From Chloroflexota bacterium (GTDB lineage: Bacteria; Chloroflexota; Chloroflexia; Chloroflexales; Chloroflexaceae): a DNA stretch of 49,618 nucleotides. A program made the translations under genes and the position numbers. The notes under the pieces are model-generated. The model was not told the origin of the DNA, did not search any database, and saw nothing but the letters and a program-made list of their open reading frames with translations. This document shows, piece after piece, positions 527 through 5,413 of the stretch. Position 1 is the stretch's first letter; each line of letters starts with the position of its first letter. The stretch lies in the NCBI GenBank assembly GCA_030550625.1, contig JAUQOZ010000117.1, positions 1-49,618 of the forward strand, written 5' to 3'.

Positions 527-2638
527 ATGGGCTTGATCAAACGGGTTGGCACCAAATCTGTCAACGCACAACCTCCCGAAAGCGGCGCTGCTGATGATGG
601 CACGCGCCAGATCAGCCCATCTACGCCGTCGTCTGCGCCTGACGATGGCACGCGCCAGATGGCGGCACGGCCCCTTGGCGGCGGCGACGATGGCACGCGC
701 CAGATGGCGGCGCGGCCTATCGGCGAAGGCCACCATGGGACGCGCCAGATGGCGGCGCGGCCCGCTGGTCAGCCGGCGCCGGTAGCGCCGGTCATGCTCA
801 GCGCTGGTACCGTTCTCCAAGGGCGTTACCACGTTGAGGGGCCAATTGGTATTGGCGGTATGAGCGTCGTCTATCGTGGGCGCGACTTGCGGTTCAAAGA
901 TGTTGTCCGCTATTGTGCGATCAAAGAAATGGCGCAGAGCGCGCCCGACTCACAAACGCGCCTGTTGAATCTCAAGAACTTTCAGCGCGAAGCCGGCTTG
1001 CTAGCGACCCTCCAGCATCCCGCTATTCCCAAGGTGTACGACTTCTTCGAGGAGAATGGCAAAGTCTATCTCGTCCTCGAATTTATCCCCGGTAAAGACC
1101 TTGAGACGGTGTTGGAAGAGCACGGCAAGCCGCTTGACGAAGCACGGGTTGCGCGGTGGGCATTGCAAATTTGCGAGGTGCTGTCATACTTGCACAATCA
1201 CAAGCCGGAACCGATCGTCTTTCGTGATATGAAGCCATCGAACGTGATGGTGGTCGGTGATGATCGGATTGTGCTCATCGACTTTGGCATTGCTCGCAAC
1301 CTCAACCGCAGTGATCGCAAGGGCACCATGATCGGTACCGAAGGCTACTCGCCGCCCGAACAGTACCGTGGCGTGGCCGAGCCGGTCGGCGATATTTATG
1401 CGCTCGGCGCGACGTTGCACCATCTGCTCACGAATACTGATCCGCGCCTCGAAACGCCGTTTACGTTCCAAGAACGCCCCATCCGCCAGATTAACCCCGC
1501 GGTTTCGCCAGAGATGGAAGCCGTGGTGATGCGCGCGCTCGAATACGACATGGCGGCCCGCTGGCAGAGCGCCGAAGAGTTCCGGCAGGCGTTGCTCACC
1601 GTGCCATCCTTGGCCGAGACGGTGGGGGTGAAGCCGGTAATGGCTGTGCCGGCAGTCGGGAAAGGGAAAAGCGCGCAAACGACCGAGCTGGTCTGGCGGT
1701 TTAAGTGCGAAGACGAGGTGCGATCGTCGCCGTTCGTTAGCGGCGGCTTAGTCTTTGTCGGCTGTTACGATACCAATATCTACGCCGTTGATGCCGCTCG
1801 CGGCGAGTTCCGTTGGAAGTATGCCACCCAAGGCGGCATCAGCTCGTCGCCGGCAGTCTGGCAAGATATGGTCTATATCGGTTCGGAAGATGGTTCGCTC
1901 TATGCGCTTGATATGCGGCGCGGCACTCCTCGTTGGACGTTCCGCACCGATAAGCCGATTCGCTCATCCCCCCGGATCGAAGACCGCGTGATCTTCGTTG
2001 GTTCAGATGATCAACACGTGTATGCGATCGATGGTCTGCGCGGCACGCTGATCTGGAAGTATCGCACATGGAATCCGATCCGCTCGTCGGCCTGCATTAA
2101 CGGTTCGTCGATCTTTATCGGCGGCGATGATGGCAATGTCTATTGCCTCGATGTGCGCACCGGCGCCGTCAAGTGGAAGCAGCGCACCCAACAGCCGGTG
2201 CGTTCGTCGCCAGCCTGTAGCGATGGGTTGGTCTTTGTCGGTTCGCTTGACCAAAACCTCTACGCGCTCGATGCCGAAGGCGGTTGGCCGGCGTGGCGCT
2301 TTCGCACCGGCCATTACATCAACTCCTCGCCGTGCGTGGTCGGTACACGGGTGTTTGTCGGCGGCGTCGATGGCAATATGTACGCGCTCGACACCAAAAA
2401 CGGGCGCTTAGTCTGGAAGTATGAGGTTGGCAGCCAGATCACCTCGTCGCCACGGGTCGAAGGTGGCCGGCTCTATTTTGGCGCCGTCGATCAGGCGGTC
2501 TATTGTCTCGATGCCGGTAGCGGCCAGTTGATCTGGAAATACCTCACCGACGGCCCGATTGTCTCGTCACCTATGATTGTCAACGGTATCGTGTATATCG
2601 GTTCAATGGATCATCATCTCTATGCGCTTAAGGCATAA
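527..2638 (+). CDS. Ser/Thr protein kinase with N-terminal DGTRQ repeats and C-terminal PQQ-like beta-propeller
   Basis: GIGGMSVVYRG P-loop, FRDMKPSN catalytic loop, IDFGIAR, GTEGYSPPEQY; eight W-x-[FY]...SSP...[FI]G..D...YALD blades. Confidence 0.95.
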   Translation: MGLIKRVGTKSVNAQPPESGAADDGTRQISPSTPSSAPDDGTRQMAARPLGGGDDGTRQMAARPIGEGHHGTRQMAARPAGQPAPVAPVMLSAGTVLQGRYHVEGPIGIGGMSVVYRGRDLRFKDVVRYCAIKEMAQSAPDSQTRLLNLKNFQREAGLLATLQHPAIPKVYDFFEENGKVYLVLEFIPGKDLETVLEEHGKPLDEARVARWALQICEVLSYLHNHKPEPIVFRDMKPSNVMVVGDDRIVLIDFGIARNLNRSDRKGTMIGTEGYSPPEQYRGVAEPVGDIYALGATLHHLLTNTDPRLETPFTFQERPIRQINPAVSPEMEAVVMRALEYDMAARWQSAEEFRQALLTVPSLAETVGVKPVMAVPAVGKGKSAQTTELVWRFKCEDEVRSSPFVSGGLVFVGCYDTNIYAVDAARGEFRWKYATQGGISSSPAVWQDMVYIGSEDGSLYALDMRRGTPRWTFRTDKPIRSSPRIEDRVIFVGSDDQHVYAIDGLRGTLIWKYRTWNPIRSSACINGSSIFIGGDDGNVYCLDVRTGAVKWKQRTQQPVRSSPACSDGLVFVGSLDQNLYALDAEGGWPAWRFRTGHYINSSPCVVGTRVFVGGVDGNMYALDTKNGRLVWKYEVGSQITSSPRVEGGRLYFGAVDQAVYCLDAGSGQLIWKYLTDGPIVSSPMIVNGIVYIGSMDHHLYALKA
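593..765 (+). repeat. Four in-frame DGTRQ[IM] repeats within the kinase N-terminus
   Basis: DNA core GAYGATGGCACGCGCCAGATGGCGGCRCGGCC repeated, units starting near 593, 641, 685 and 731. Confidence 0.9.
1691..2635 (+). repeat. Eight tandem 120-bp (40-aa) propeller blades in the kinase C-terminus
   Basis: Blade starts at 1691 + 120n; all blades align without gaps. Confidence 0.95.
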
Positions 2639-2664
2639 GTTGTCCAGCGAGGAAGGTTGCCGCT

Positions 2665-3621
2665 ATGCCGGATGAAACCGTTTCTTCTCCTGATGAAACG
2701 CCTACTGAACCACTTGATTTAGCTTCTATCGAAGTGGAACGGCAGCGGCAAATGATGCTGACGCCTCCCGAAGAAGATGGCACTCGCCAAATTGGGCAGG
2801 ATTACCAACCGGCATTGACACTGCATCGCTCGGCGCAGGGTTTTGCCGCTGCCGCGCTGCGCGATATTGGCCGGGTGCGGGAAACGAATCAAGATTGCGT
2901 GTTAGCAATGATTATGACCCTGCCGCGCGAAGGTACTGATGTGCCGGTGGGTTTGTTTATCGTGGCTGATGGCATGGGCGGCCATCAAGGCGGTGAAGTA
3001 GCCAGCCGGTTGGCGGTGCAGACGGTGTTGACCAGTGTGCTGGAACGCCTTGTCTTGCCGGTGATCGAAGATGGCTTGTTTGAGGCGTTGCAACCGCTGA
3101 TGATCGAATCGGTACAAGAGGCGAATGCCGCGATTTGGCGTGAAGCGCAGGCGCTCGGTTCCGATATGGGCACGACCTGCACCGCGGCGCTCGTGATTGG
3201 CCATGGCCTCTATGTCGCTCACGTCGGCGATTCACGCTGCTATGTGTACGAGCCGGGCGGGTTGCGCCAATTGACTACCGACCATTCGACGGTGGGGCGG
3301 TTGATTGCGCTCGGCCAGCTTGATCCTGATGAAGCGCGTGAGCATCCGCTGCGCAACCAGCTCTATCGCACGGTTGGCCAACAGCCGCAGGTCGCCGTCG
3401 ATTTCGTCTATCACCAGCTCAATAATTGCTCACATATCGTTCTGTGTAGTGATGGCCTGTGGAGTATGGTCGAAGAAAAGGCGATTGAACGGGCATTGCA
3501 GCATAGTCCATGGCCGCACGATGTCTGCCGCGAGTTGATCGCGTTAGCCAACTTGGCCGGCGGCGATGACAATATCTCAGCGGTCGTGGTGTCGTTGCCG
3601 CTCGATGAGGGTCAGCGATGA
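2665..3621 (+). CDS. PP2C-family Ser/Thr protein phosphatase carrying one DGTRQI motif
   Basis: VADGMGGHQGGE, VGDSRCYVY, CSDGLW, GGDDNIS motifs. Confidence 0.95.
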   Translation: MPDETVSSPDETPTEPLDLASIEVERQRQMMLTPPEEDGTRQIGQDYQPALTLHRSAQGFAAAALRDIGRVRETNQDCVLAMIMTLPREGTDVPVGLFIVADGMGGHQGGEVASRLAVQTVLTSVLERLVLPVIEDGLFEALQPLMIESVQEANAAIWREAQALGSDMGTTCTAALVIGHGLYVAHVGDSRCYVYEPGGLRQLTTDHSTVGRLIALGQLDPDEAREHPLRNQLYRTVGQQPQVAVDFVYHQLNNCSHIVLCSDGLWSMVEEKAIERALQHSPWPHDVCRELIALANLAGGDDNISAVVVSLPLDEGQR

Positions 3622-4874
3622 GCAAGGTTGAGGTGCGCATCACGCCAAGCCGTAGTGTGTTGCCGGCGAGCGCCGAGCCGCAGTTGCTCTATGCGCTGAT
3701 CGAGTTGTCGGCGCAAAGCGGTGCGACCAAGATGCCGCGCTTGCCACTCAACCTCTGTTTGGTCATTGACCGCAGCTCTTCGATGCGCGGCGAACGGTTG
3801 CAGCAGGTTAAGCAGGCGGCGATGCAGATCCTCGACCTGCTTGGCGATAACGAAAGCTTTGCGCTAGTGACGTTTAACGATCGCGCTGAGGTGGTGGTTC
3901 CGGCCCAACTCGCGCGGGCACGGCAGGAAATAAAGCGCCACATCAGCGCGATTGAGGCTGCCGGCGGTACCGAGATGGCAACCGGCTTGGCGCTGGGGGT
4001 GCAAGAATTGCAACGGGCCATGATGCCGCGCGCTGTCCATCGTTTGCTCTTGCTGACCGATGGCCGCACCTATGGCGATGAGGGTCGCTGCGTTGAGATT
4101 GCCCGCCGCGCGCAGTCGCGCGGGATCGGGATTACAGCGCTGGGTATCGGCAGTGAGTGGAATGAAGACTTGCTCGAGACGATCGCTGCCCGCGAAAATA
4201 GTCGCACCCACTACATCACTTCGGCTAGCGAAATTACCAAAATCTTCACCGCTGAAGTTGAGCGCATGCAGAATCTGTTTGCGCAAGATGTGCATGTGCG
4301 GCTGGCCTTACCGCCGCAAGCGTTGGTGCGCTCGCTCGATCGGGTGCGTCCCTTTATCGGGCCCCTGCCAGTGATTGAAGAAGCTGATTTTGTCTGGACG
4401 GCGGCGCTCGGCGATTGGCCTGAGAGCGACACCCAAGCGTTGTTGCTGGAAATGGTGGTGCCGCCATTGCCGGTTGGCCGGCATACGTTGGTTCGCTTCA
4501 ATGTGCGTTACCGCACACCGGGCAGCGATAGCGCAACTCAAAGCCACGAGCAGACGTTGCCAGTCGCGTTTCGCGACCCTGCTGAGGTTGGCGATGATGT
4601 TGACCCCACGGTCAAGCACTGGCTGGAACGGCTGGTGGCTTACCGGCTGCAAGCCAGCGCATGGCAAGCTGCCGAAGAAGGCAGACTAGAAGAGGCGACC
4701 CGGCGCTTGCAAATGGCCGGTACGCGCCTCTTTGAAGCGGGGCAAGTTGAATTGGCCCGCACTGTGCAAGAGGAGGCGACCCGCTTGCTCCGGTCGGGGC
4801 AGGCGAGCGCTGAAGGGCGCAAGCGGATTAAGTACGGCACGCGCGGTTTGATGGGGCGTGACGAGCAATCGTAG
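3618..4874 (+). CDS. VWA-domain protein
   Basis: MIDAS VIDRSSSM, GGTEMATGL, LLTDG; ATGA overlap with PP2C stop. Confidence 0.9.
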   Translation: MSKVEVRITPSRSVLPASAEPQLLYALIELSAQSGATKMPRLPLNLCLVIDRSSSMRGERLQQVKQAAMQILDLLGDNESFALVTFNDRAEVVVPAQLARARQEIKRHISAIEAAGGTEMATGLALGVQELQRAMMPRAVHRLLLLTDGRTYGDEGRCVEIARRAQSRGIGITALGIGSEWNEDLLETIAARENSRTHYITSASEITKIFTAEVERMQNLFAQDVHVRLALPPQALVRSLDRVRPFIGPLPVIEEADFVWTAALGDWPESDTQALLLEMVVPPLPVGRHTLVRFNVRYRTPGSDSATQSHEQTLPVAFRDPAEVGDDVDPTVKHWLERLVAYRLQASAWQAAEEGRLEEATRRLQMAGTRLFEAGQVELARTVQEEATRLLRSGQASAEGRKRIKYGTRGLMGRDEQS

Positions 4875-4891
4875 GCCGGAGTCAATGACCC

Positions 4892-5413
4892 ATGATCATC
4901 TGCAGTTACTGCCAAGCCCAACAACTCGATGGCACGATCTTTTGCACCGTCTGCGGCGCCAGCCTGATCAATACCAAACCGCAACGCCAAACCACCGCTT
5001 CGCTGAATCGAGCGGCTGCCGAAGCAGCGCCACTGATTGAAGACGAGCCAACCGTTCTGCCGGCGCCGGCGAACCCGGCGACTGGGCCGGCGATTGCGCT
5101 GGTGGTGCTGAGTTCGGGCCGGCGGATTGAGTTGCCGGCGGCGCCGGAATTGCTGATTGGGCGCAAAGACCAGCAGCGCGGCTTTTTCCCCGATGTTGAT
5201 TTTAGTCTCGATGGCGGGTATGATGCCGGCGTCTCGCGCCGCCATGCCCGGATCGTGTGTTCCCAAAATCATTACGCCCTTGAAGATCTCGGTAGCTCGA
5301 ATGGGACGTTTCTCAACCGTCAGCGCCTGCCTCCCGGCCAGCCAATGCCGTTGCAGCACGGCGATGAGGTGCAGTTTGGGATGTTATTGGTGCGGTTTGA
5401 GGTGAGTTCATAA
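4892..5413 (+). CDS. Zinc-ribbon + FHA-domain protein
   Basis: CSYCQ..CTVCG zinc ribbon; LIGRK..VSRRHARI..LEDLGSSNGTFLN FHA motif. Confidence 0.95.
   Translation: MIICSYCQAQQLDGTIFCTVCGASLINTKPQRQTTASLNRAAAEAAPLIEDEPTVLPAPANPATGPAIALVVLSSGRRIELPAAPELLIGRKDQQRGFFPDVDFSLDGGYDAGVSRRHARIVCSQNHYALEDLGSSNGTFLNRQRLPPGQPMPLQHGDEVQFGMLLVRFEVSS

Follow-up and report, generated by a model that had tools for sequence, protein, structure and literature searches.

A tagged kinase, phosphatase, VWA and FHA operon

The first 49,618 nucleotides of contig JAUQOZ010000117.1 from the Chloroflexus (Chloroflexaceae) assembly GCA_030550625.1, hereafter called the window, carry an operon of four intact and nearly abutting genes on one strand that encode a Hanks-type Ser/Thr kinase, a PP2C-family phosphatase, a VWA protein and a protein combining a zinc ribbon with an FHA domain, each with the expected Pfam domains (Table 1). 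A sequence-only reading of this DNA had placed the VWA and zinc-ribbon/FHA proteins in one operon with the kinase and the phosphatase and had described a DGTRQ[IM] peptide occurring four times in the kinase N-terminus and once in the phosphatase. We indeed located all of these, with isoleucine or methionine three residues after the threonine (the +3 position) in all five copies, and found further tags of the same type in a header at the extreme N-terminus of the kinase, in the phosphatase extension (TPTEPL), in the tail of the VWA protein (KYGTRGL) and in the linker of the FHA protein (TTASL). The four proteins appear made to activate, hold and let go of one another through phosphorylation.

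The sharing of DGTRQ[IM]-type tags within the operon is not due to chance. In an 18-base DNA search for the pattern [DE][SGR]T[RS]Q[IM] that covered six of eight Chloroflexus genomes, matches in the window's own genome were confined to the operon tags and to the same kinase gene at a second contig end, and a reversed control pattern gave 0 to 1 matches per genome. The peptide is not a genome-wide tag: matches beyond the kinase and the phosphatase stayed at chance level and fell in overlapping frames or in one response-regulator-like open reading frame. Kinase copies 2 to 4 are near-identical 45-bp tandem repeats, so the four kinase copies do not amount to four independent observations. Another version of the kinase start, again with DGTRQM repeats, lies on a contig that stops inside the repeat (G000:C229:15177-15422, L118), and the sequence preceding it shows a 98.5% match to the first 274 bp of the window. 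We therefore rejected it as a paralogue; it is likely a co-assembled strain variant whose contig broke in the repeat, and it shows the kinase repeat copy number to be unstable.

The kinase is composed of the tagged N-terminal extension (residues 1 to 96), the kinase domain (residues 101 to 347) and a PQQ-type beta-propeller at the C-terminus. The phosphatase scores 227.6 bits against the Stp1 model (cut-off 230), and the VWA protein is 96% identical to its nearest named record, from C. islandicus. The genes following the operon encode an arginase and an MFS protein.

Table 1. Genes, FHA domain and threonine tags of the operon, in window positions
Feature	Position	Strand	Evidence
Hanks-type Ser/Thr kinase, 703 residues	527..2638	+	Pkinase E 5e-42; RDMKPSN and DFG catalytic motifs
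Kinase header tag GTKSV (residues 8-12), part of MGLIKRVGTKSV at the extreme N-terminus	548..562	+	near-universal in Chloroflexales orthologues
Kinase tag 1 DGTRQI, context DDGTRQIS	596..613	+	sequence
Kinase tag 2 DGTRQM, context DDGTRQMAARP, 45-bp repeat unit	644..661	+	sequence
Kinase tag 3 DGTRQM, context DDGTRQMAARP, 45-bp repeat unit	689..706	+	sequence
Kinase tag 4 HGTRQM, context HHGTRQMAARP, 45-bp repeat unit	734..751	+	sequence
PP2C-family Ser/Thr phosphatase, Stp1-like, tagged N-extension, 318 residues	2665..3621	+	PP2C_2 E 7e-17
PP2C tag A TEPL, context TPTEPL (T-x-P-L class)	2704..2715	+	conserved T-x-P-[LIVMFY]
PP2C tag B DGTRQI, context EEDGTRQIGQ	2776..2793	+	codon-change pattern
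VWA protein, 418 residues: vWA, beta-sandwich and C-terminal helical bundle, ArnB-like fold	3618..4874	+	Pfam; model confidence (pLDDT) 90
VWA C-terminal tag GTRGL (Thr408), context IKYGTRGL	4836..4850	+	invariance in the order
Zinc ribbon, disordered linker and FHA protein, 173 residues, GarA/OdhI-like FHA	4892..5413	+	FHA E 2e-21
FHA linker tag TTASL (Thr35), at the GarA/OdhI ETTSVF switch position	4991..5005	+	invariance, disorder, phmmer alignment
FHA domain	5153..5380	+	phosphothreonine-site residues G90 R91, S115 R116 H118, N137 G138 conserved

Conservation and selection of individual tags

Across Chloroflexales, nearly all kinase orthologues begin with the header consensus M[GAS]L[IL]K[KR]xGT[KR]x-hydrophobic, in which the codons for Thr and Lys show none but synonymous changes among seven Chloroflexus species. 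In the same seven species the Thr, Arg, Gln and Ile of kinase tag 1 are invariant, again with only synonymous changes in the Thr and Arg codons. For tag B of the phosphatase, the nonsynonymous fraction of codon changes is 0.08 versus 0.40 in the remaining extension, a pattern that indicates purifying selection. The corresponding test of the whole kinase repeat block (0.48 versus 0.56) is uninformative because the repeats align ambiguously. Tag A of the phosphatase belongs to a T-x-P-[LIVMFY] class that occurs in 45 of the 54 phosphatase extensions from Chloroflexales and, among deeper relatives, in 27 of 35; it has been lost in one orthologue (L053).

Residues G407 to L411 of the VWA tail are invariant across the order, and among 98 tails, of which five truncated or frameshifted ones were excluded, 92 of the 93 complete ones carry the threonine of a KYGTRxL-type end throughout the phylum: 89 match the pattern directly, three have the threonine in slightly different flanks (L049, L287, L301) and only L266 is without it. 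In the Ktedonobacterales L266 and L267, the tail threonine is replaced by isoleucine or methionine (KYAIRNL, KYAMRNL), and we saw no FHA gene match in the fetched stretch.

In the FHA protein, Thr35 is the sole invariant linker residue among 24 sequences and is kept in at least 90% of a second set. The model is disordered at this linker (pLDDT below 50 at residues 29 to 48), and phmmer aligns the TTASL stretch with the OdhI switch site ETTSVF. A second threonine stretch of the same linker, DEPTVLPAP (window 5042-5068), also occurs within the genus as DEATILPAP or DTATVLPAP and resembles the APTVIAPP repeats of a paralogous FHA protein.

Threonine with a hydrophobic residue at +3 across the order

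About 50 genomes from the order, comprising Chloroflexaceae and their relatives, Herpetosiphon and Roseiflexus, share the gene arrangement kinase, PP2C, VWA, FHA, and the same synteny appears in other lineages of the phylum. We analysed the +3 position in 54 orthologous operons from 26 genera with one vote per genus, counting I, L, V, M or F as hydrophobic, taking the shuffled sequence as baseline and leaving the first 15 residues out of the kinase-extension statistic. Kinase extensions have a hydrophobic residue at +3 of threonine in 41% of cases versus 14% after shuffling (z 13.9; next-best offset z 3.5), and phosphatase extensions in 29% versus 15% (z 7.5), where all z values are descriptive because the shuffling ignores relatedness. 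Serine behaves differently, with a hydrophobic +3 in 14% of cases in the kinase extensions (z -0.1) and depletion in those of the phosphatase. The peak recurs for both proteins in the families f1, f2 and f3, and two features independent of kinship serve as controls, namely the single sharp offset at +3 and the lack of any signal at serine.

The N-terminal extensions of both proteins align poorly between genera, and the flanks and the +1 and +2 residues vary while the hydrophobic +3 stays. Kinase tags thus take forms such as DDSTRQI, DDATRTF, PDATRGI, DETSTVGL and GTTKGI, and phosphatase tags forms such as DGTRQL, DATHQL, DGTNYL and DGTRPL. The sequence-only reading had proposed DGTRQ[IM] as a phospho-dependent docking tag to be conserved in orthologous kinase and phosphatase pairs. 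As an exact string it is confined to the genus and was rejected as the conserved motif; what holds across the 26 genera and beyond is a threonine-specific Thr-x-x-hydrophobic class of which DGTRQ[IM] is the genus-level version. In this the tags behave like phosphothreonine/FHA (or kinase) motifs; FHA binding is sensitive to the +3 residue (PMC6733907; PMC5549992).

Tag numbers differ widely between lineages. Within the genus, kinases carry two to four copies; those of Herpetosiphon have about 10, those of Anaerolineae-type relatives one or two, and those of Roseiflexus little beyond the header tag. The phosphatase usually has two. We consequently abandoned the fixed 4:1 ratio of kinase to phosphatase copies, and with it the proposal that this ratio sets avidity for the FHA protein, which finds no support because copy number drifts by tandem duplication.

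This drift is what one would expect if the kinase repeats were a minisatellite evolving neutrally within a disordered linker and their resemblance to the phosphatase tag a product of chance or drift. The near-identical 45-bp units, the two to four copies within the genus and the second variant in the same assembly would fit such an origin, as would the observation that kinase and phosphatase of one genome do not share their exact +1 and +2 residues more often than permuted pairs across genera (P = 0.19). We consider it highly improbable all the same, given that threonine, not serine, and its hydrophobic +3 persist across 26 genera and further afield in linkers that cannot be aligned, that changes in the Thr/Arg codons of tag 1 and the Thr/Lys codons of the header are all synonymous, and that the phosphatase tag is under purifying selection.

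Several observations weigh against a tag code shared by all four proteins. The shuffles disregard kinship and start codons were guessed; the kinase +3 peak is not significant in the family f4; and the phosphatase peak of deeper relatives is weak (z 2.4). In the genera g11, g12 and g14, GGDTRRGL- or GTKRGI-type repeats place the hydrophobic residue at +4, which shows that +3 is no strict rule, and in the genus g4 the phosphatase lacks an N-terminal extension, which makes its tag dispensable. Finally, Thr408 of the VWA protein lies inside a predicted ordered helix (the tail helix of residues 398 to 409, modelled by AlphaFold with high confidence), and the conservation of this tail may therefore be structural.

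The last point leads to a narrower explanation, in which the VWA tail KYGTRxL and the kinase header MGLIKKxGTK serve structure or targeting and merely happen to have a Thr-x-x-hydrophobic pattern, and in which only the kinase repeats, the phosphatase extension and the FHA linker make up the docking code. Besides the confidently predicted helix, it draws on the conserved basic and hydrophobic residues that the header has in addition to its threonine and on the absence of this header from Anaerolineae-type kinases that keep a tag. Against it, the phosphosites of ArnB also lie in ordered C-terminal helices, with the interaction surface exposed on phosphorylation (PMC12852372), and the tail threonine is lost (AIRNL) in L266, for which the fetched stretch gave no FHA match. 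We regard this explanation as somewhat unlikely.

Some variants of the operon deserve a separate description. Oscillochloris/Viridilinea-type kinases (L065, L072, L073, L075, L076) have two to five almost perfect copies of GGDTRRGLTPP, in which the hydrophobic residue stands at +4. In Candidatus Chloroploca (L067-L069), the phosphatase has neither N-extension nor tags, and the linker site of the FHA protein reads SATPAM or SATLAV. Chloroflexus also has a second cluster of kinase, PP2C, VWA and FHA genes in another order (L084, G000:C184; L085, G005:C1:926000-939000), in which the kinase opens with a zinc ribbon and not with tags, the FHA protein carries an APTVIAPP repeat and the VWA protein ends in RYATRRL.

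Deeper relatives within the phylum

The operon is also found in further families and classes, where the tags differ in sequence but not in type, with examples such as LDTQNI, LETRLF, LETKNM or MKTRPI in the kinase, TTAPL in the phosphatase, IKYGTRAL or IKYGTRSL in the VWA protein and LTTQNI or LTTQSI in the FHA linker. The +3 peak is again seen in the kinase (z 6.8), the VWA tail (z 11.2) and the FHA linker (z 5.3), with serine flat in each. In the family f10, where the thresholds applied yielded no VWA match in any genome, kinase orthologues carry a tag, scored as a T[RKQH]x-hydrophobic string, in 1 of 8 cases versus 84 of 98 in genomes with the operon (Fisher P 3e-5, without correction for phylogeny). 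These kinases have short N-termini, and their single tag string may precede the true start.

These data also bear on the possibility that the hydrophobic +3 reflects nothing but the substrate preference of the kinase, the tags being direct regulatory sites of auto- or trans-phosphorylation in which FHA docking plays no role. Kinase and FHA preferences overlap, and the mycobacterial PknA sites, which are preceded by acidic residues and have Pro and Leu/Val at +2 and +3, respectively (PMC7164672), would fit both DDGTRQI and the TAPL/TEPL of the phosphatase; by analogy with them, part of the +3 signal may stem from the kinase's own preference. As a full account we find this unlikely: kinase orthologues without a VWA partner are mostly untagged, the majority of tags lie, in the manner of docking sites, in disordered tails away from the catalytic domains, and the adjoining FHA gene retains its phosphothreonine site. 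Kinase preference and FHA docking are, moreover, compatible.

A proposed phosphorylation module

We think it probable that the four genes form one self-assembling, phospho-docking module joined by the linear tag Thr-x-x-hydrophobic. Each phosphorylation and binding step of this module is one that we infer from the tags, their conservation, their specificity for threonine and for +3, the operon linkage and the fold relatives. Upon stimulation, the PQQ-propeller kinase would autophosphorylate threonines in its own disordered N-terminal tags and would also phosphorylate tags of this class in the phosphatase extension, the VWA C-terminus and the linker of the FHA protein. The FHA domain would then dock on the phosphothreonine tags of kinase, VWA protein and phosphatase, and its docking on the VWA protein would, as in ArnA-ArnB, strengthen an association that the zinc ribbon already maintains. 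The tag in the linker of the FHA protein itself would compete for the same pocket, and once Thr35 is phosphorylated, the FHA domain would fold back on its own linker in the manner of GarA/OdhI and let the partners go. The phosphatase, recruited through its own tags, would strip the phosphates and reset the cycle. With about ten FHA-containing stretches in the window's own genome, the tags could be recognised by a further FHA protein as well.

More tentatively, and with rather more doubt than confidence, we suggest that this module is phylum-wide, with Thr-x-x-hydrophobic tags on a kinase, a phosphatase, an ArnB-like VWA protein and a GarA/ArnA-like FHA reader that phosphorylation would turn into competing ligands for one FHA domain, making it a bacterial ArnAB counterpart with its own kinase and phosphatase.

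Our literature search, from whose coverage subscription journals were mostly absent, found no paper describing this operon and no phosphoproteome of these organisms, and the conserved operon is apparently undescribed.

Comparison with known systems

The closest NCBIfam match of the kinase is AfsK of Streptomyces, which likewise joins a Hanks kinase to a C-terminal PQQ beta-propeller, though its 252.7 bits are far under the cut-off of the AfsK model (NF053615, 1300), and we know of no such tags or VWA/PP2C partners for AfsK kinases. In the threonine phosphorylation pathway of type VI secretion, PpkA, PppA and Fha similarly act together as kinase, PP2C and FHA protein; we saw no type VI secretion genes beside the operon, and its FHA protein reaches 46.6 bits against TagH (TIGR03354, cut-off 120.25). 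In TerY-P triads, kinase, PP2C and vWA genes are linked as well. The same linkage is seen in sets of kinase, PP2C and standalone vWA near conflict systems (PMC7159879); unlike these and the triads, the operon described here stands alone, includes an FHA protein and is conserved throughout an order. Next to it in the window, where no dedicated Ter search was made, we saw no GTPase, MoxR or Ter genes, and we rejected a role as a defence system since the PADLOC matches of the kinase are generic kinase-domain matches.

By analogy, the closest precedent for the kinase end of the module is PknG-GarA. In PknG, N-terminal autophosphorylation sites anchor the FHA domain of GarA, and in PknG-GarA/OdhI and PknB-GarA of Actinobacteria, threonine sites in a disordered kinase N-terminus recruit the FHA protein (PMC8546545). 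The FHA domain of the operon is nearest to GarA/OdhI by sequence and by fold, with OdhI and GarA among the best PDB matches of its model and the residues of the phosphothreonine pocket conserved, and the ETTSVF-type linker site has its counterpart in Thr35-A-S-L38 with a hydrophobic +3 ahead of the FHA domain; against the curated OdhI family NF041660, the protein scores 47.4 bits (cut-off 200). Unlike the actinobacterial systems, the operon adds a zinc ribbon to the FHA protein and a PQQ propeller to the kinase, and places tags on a phosphatase and a VWA protein as well, all in a single operon.

The VWA/FHA pair, in turn, resembles ArnA/ArnB of the Sulfolobus archaellum regulatory network because its FHA domain is GarA/OdhI-like and its VWA protein has the fold of archaeal ArnB. 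Foldseek matched the VWA model to a Catenulispora VWA protein (4fx5, E 6e-30), to ArnAB (8s05, E 1e-25) and to the ArnB paralogue VWA2 (5a8j, E 7e-22), with no Pfam match to ArnB_C at E 0.001. ArnA combines a zinc finger with an FHA domain, as the operon's FHA protein does with its CxxC...CxxC zinc ribbon, and is likewise partnered with a protein of vWA, beta-sandwich and C-terminal helical parts; the zinc finger holds unphosphorylated ArnB and the FHA domain the phosphorylated C-terminal domain of ArnB, which carries phosphothreonine (PMC12852372). The predicted tag Thr408 would be the counterpart of this C-terminal phosphothreonine. The natural reading, by this analogy, is that the FHA protein would bind the VWA protein through its zinc ribbon when the latter is unphosphorylated and through its FHA domain when the latter is phosphorylated. 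The operon differs from the archaeal pair in being bacterial, in an identity of about 18% and in including a kinase and a PP2C phosphatase that both carry tags.

FHA phospho-docking on a kinase tail is thus known from Actinobacteria and the pairing of FHA and VWA proteins from Sulfolobus, and the Chloroflexota operon appears to unite both, with the same class of tag on the phosphatase. If this is true, it would suggest a function for a conserved operon, provide a testable peptide code and link GarA-type with ArnAB-type signalling.

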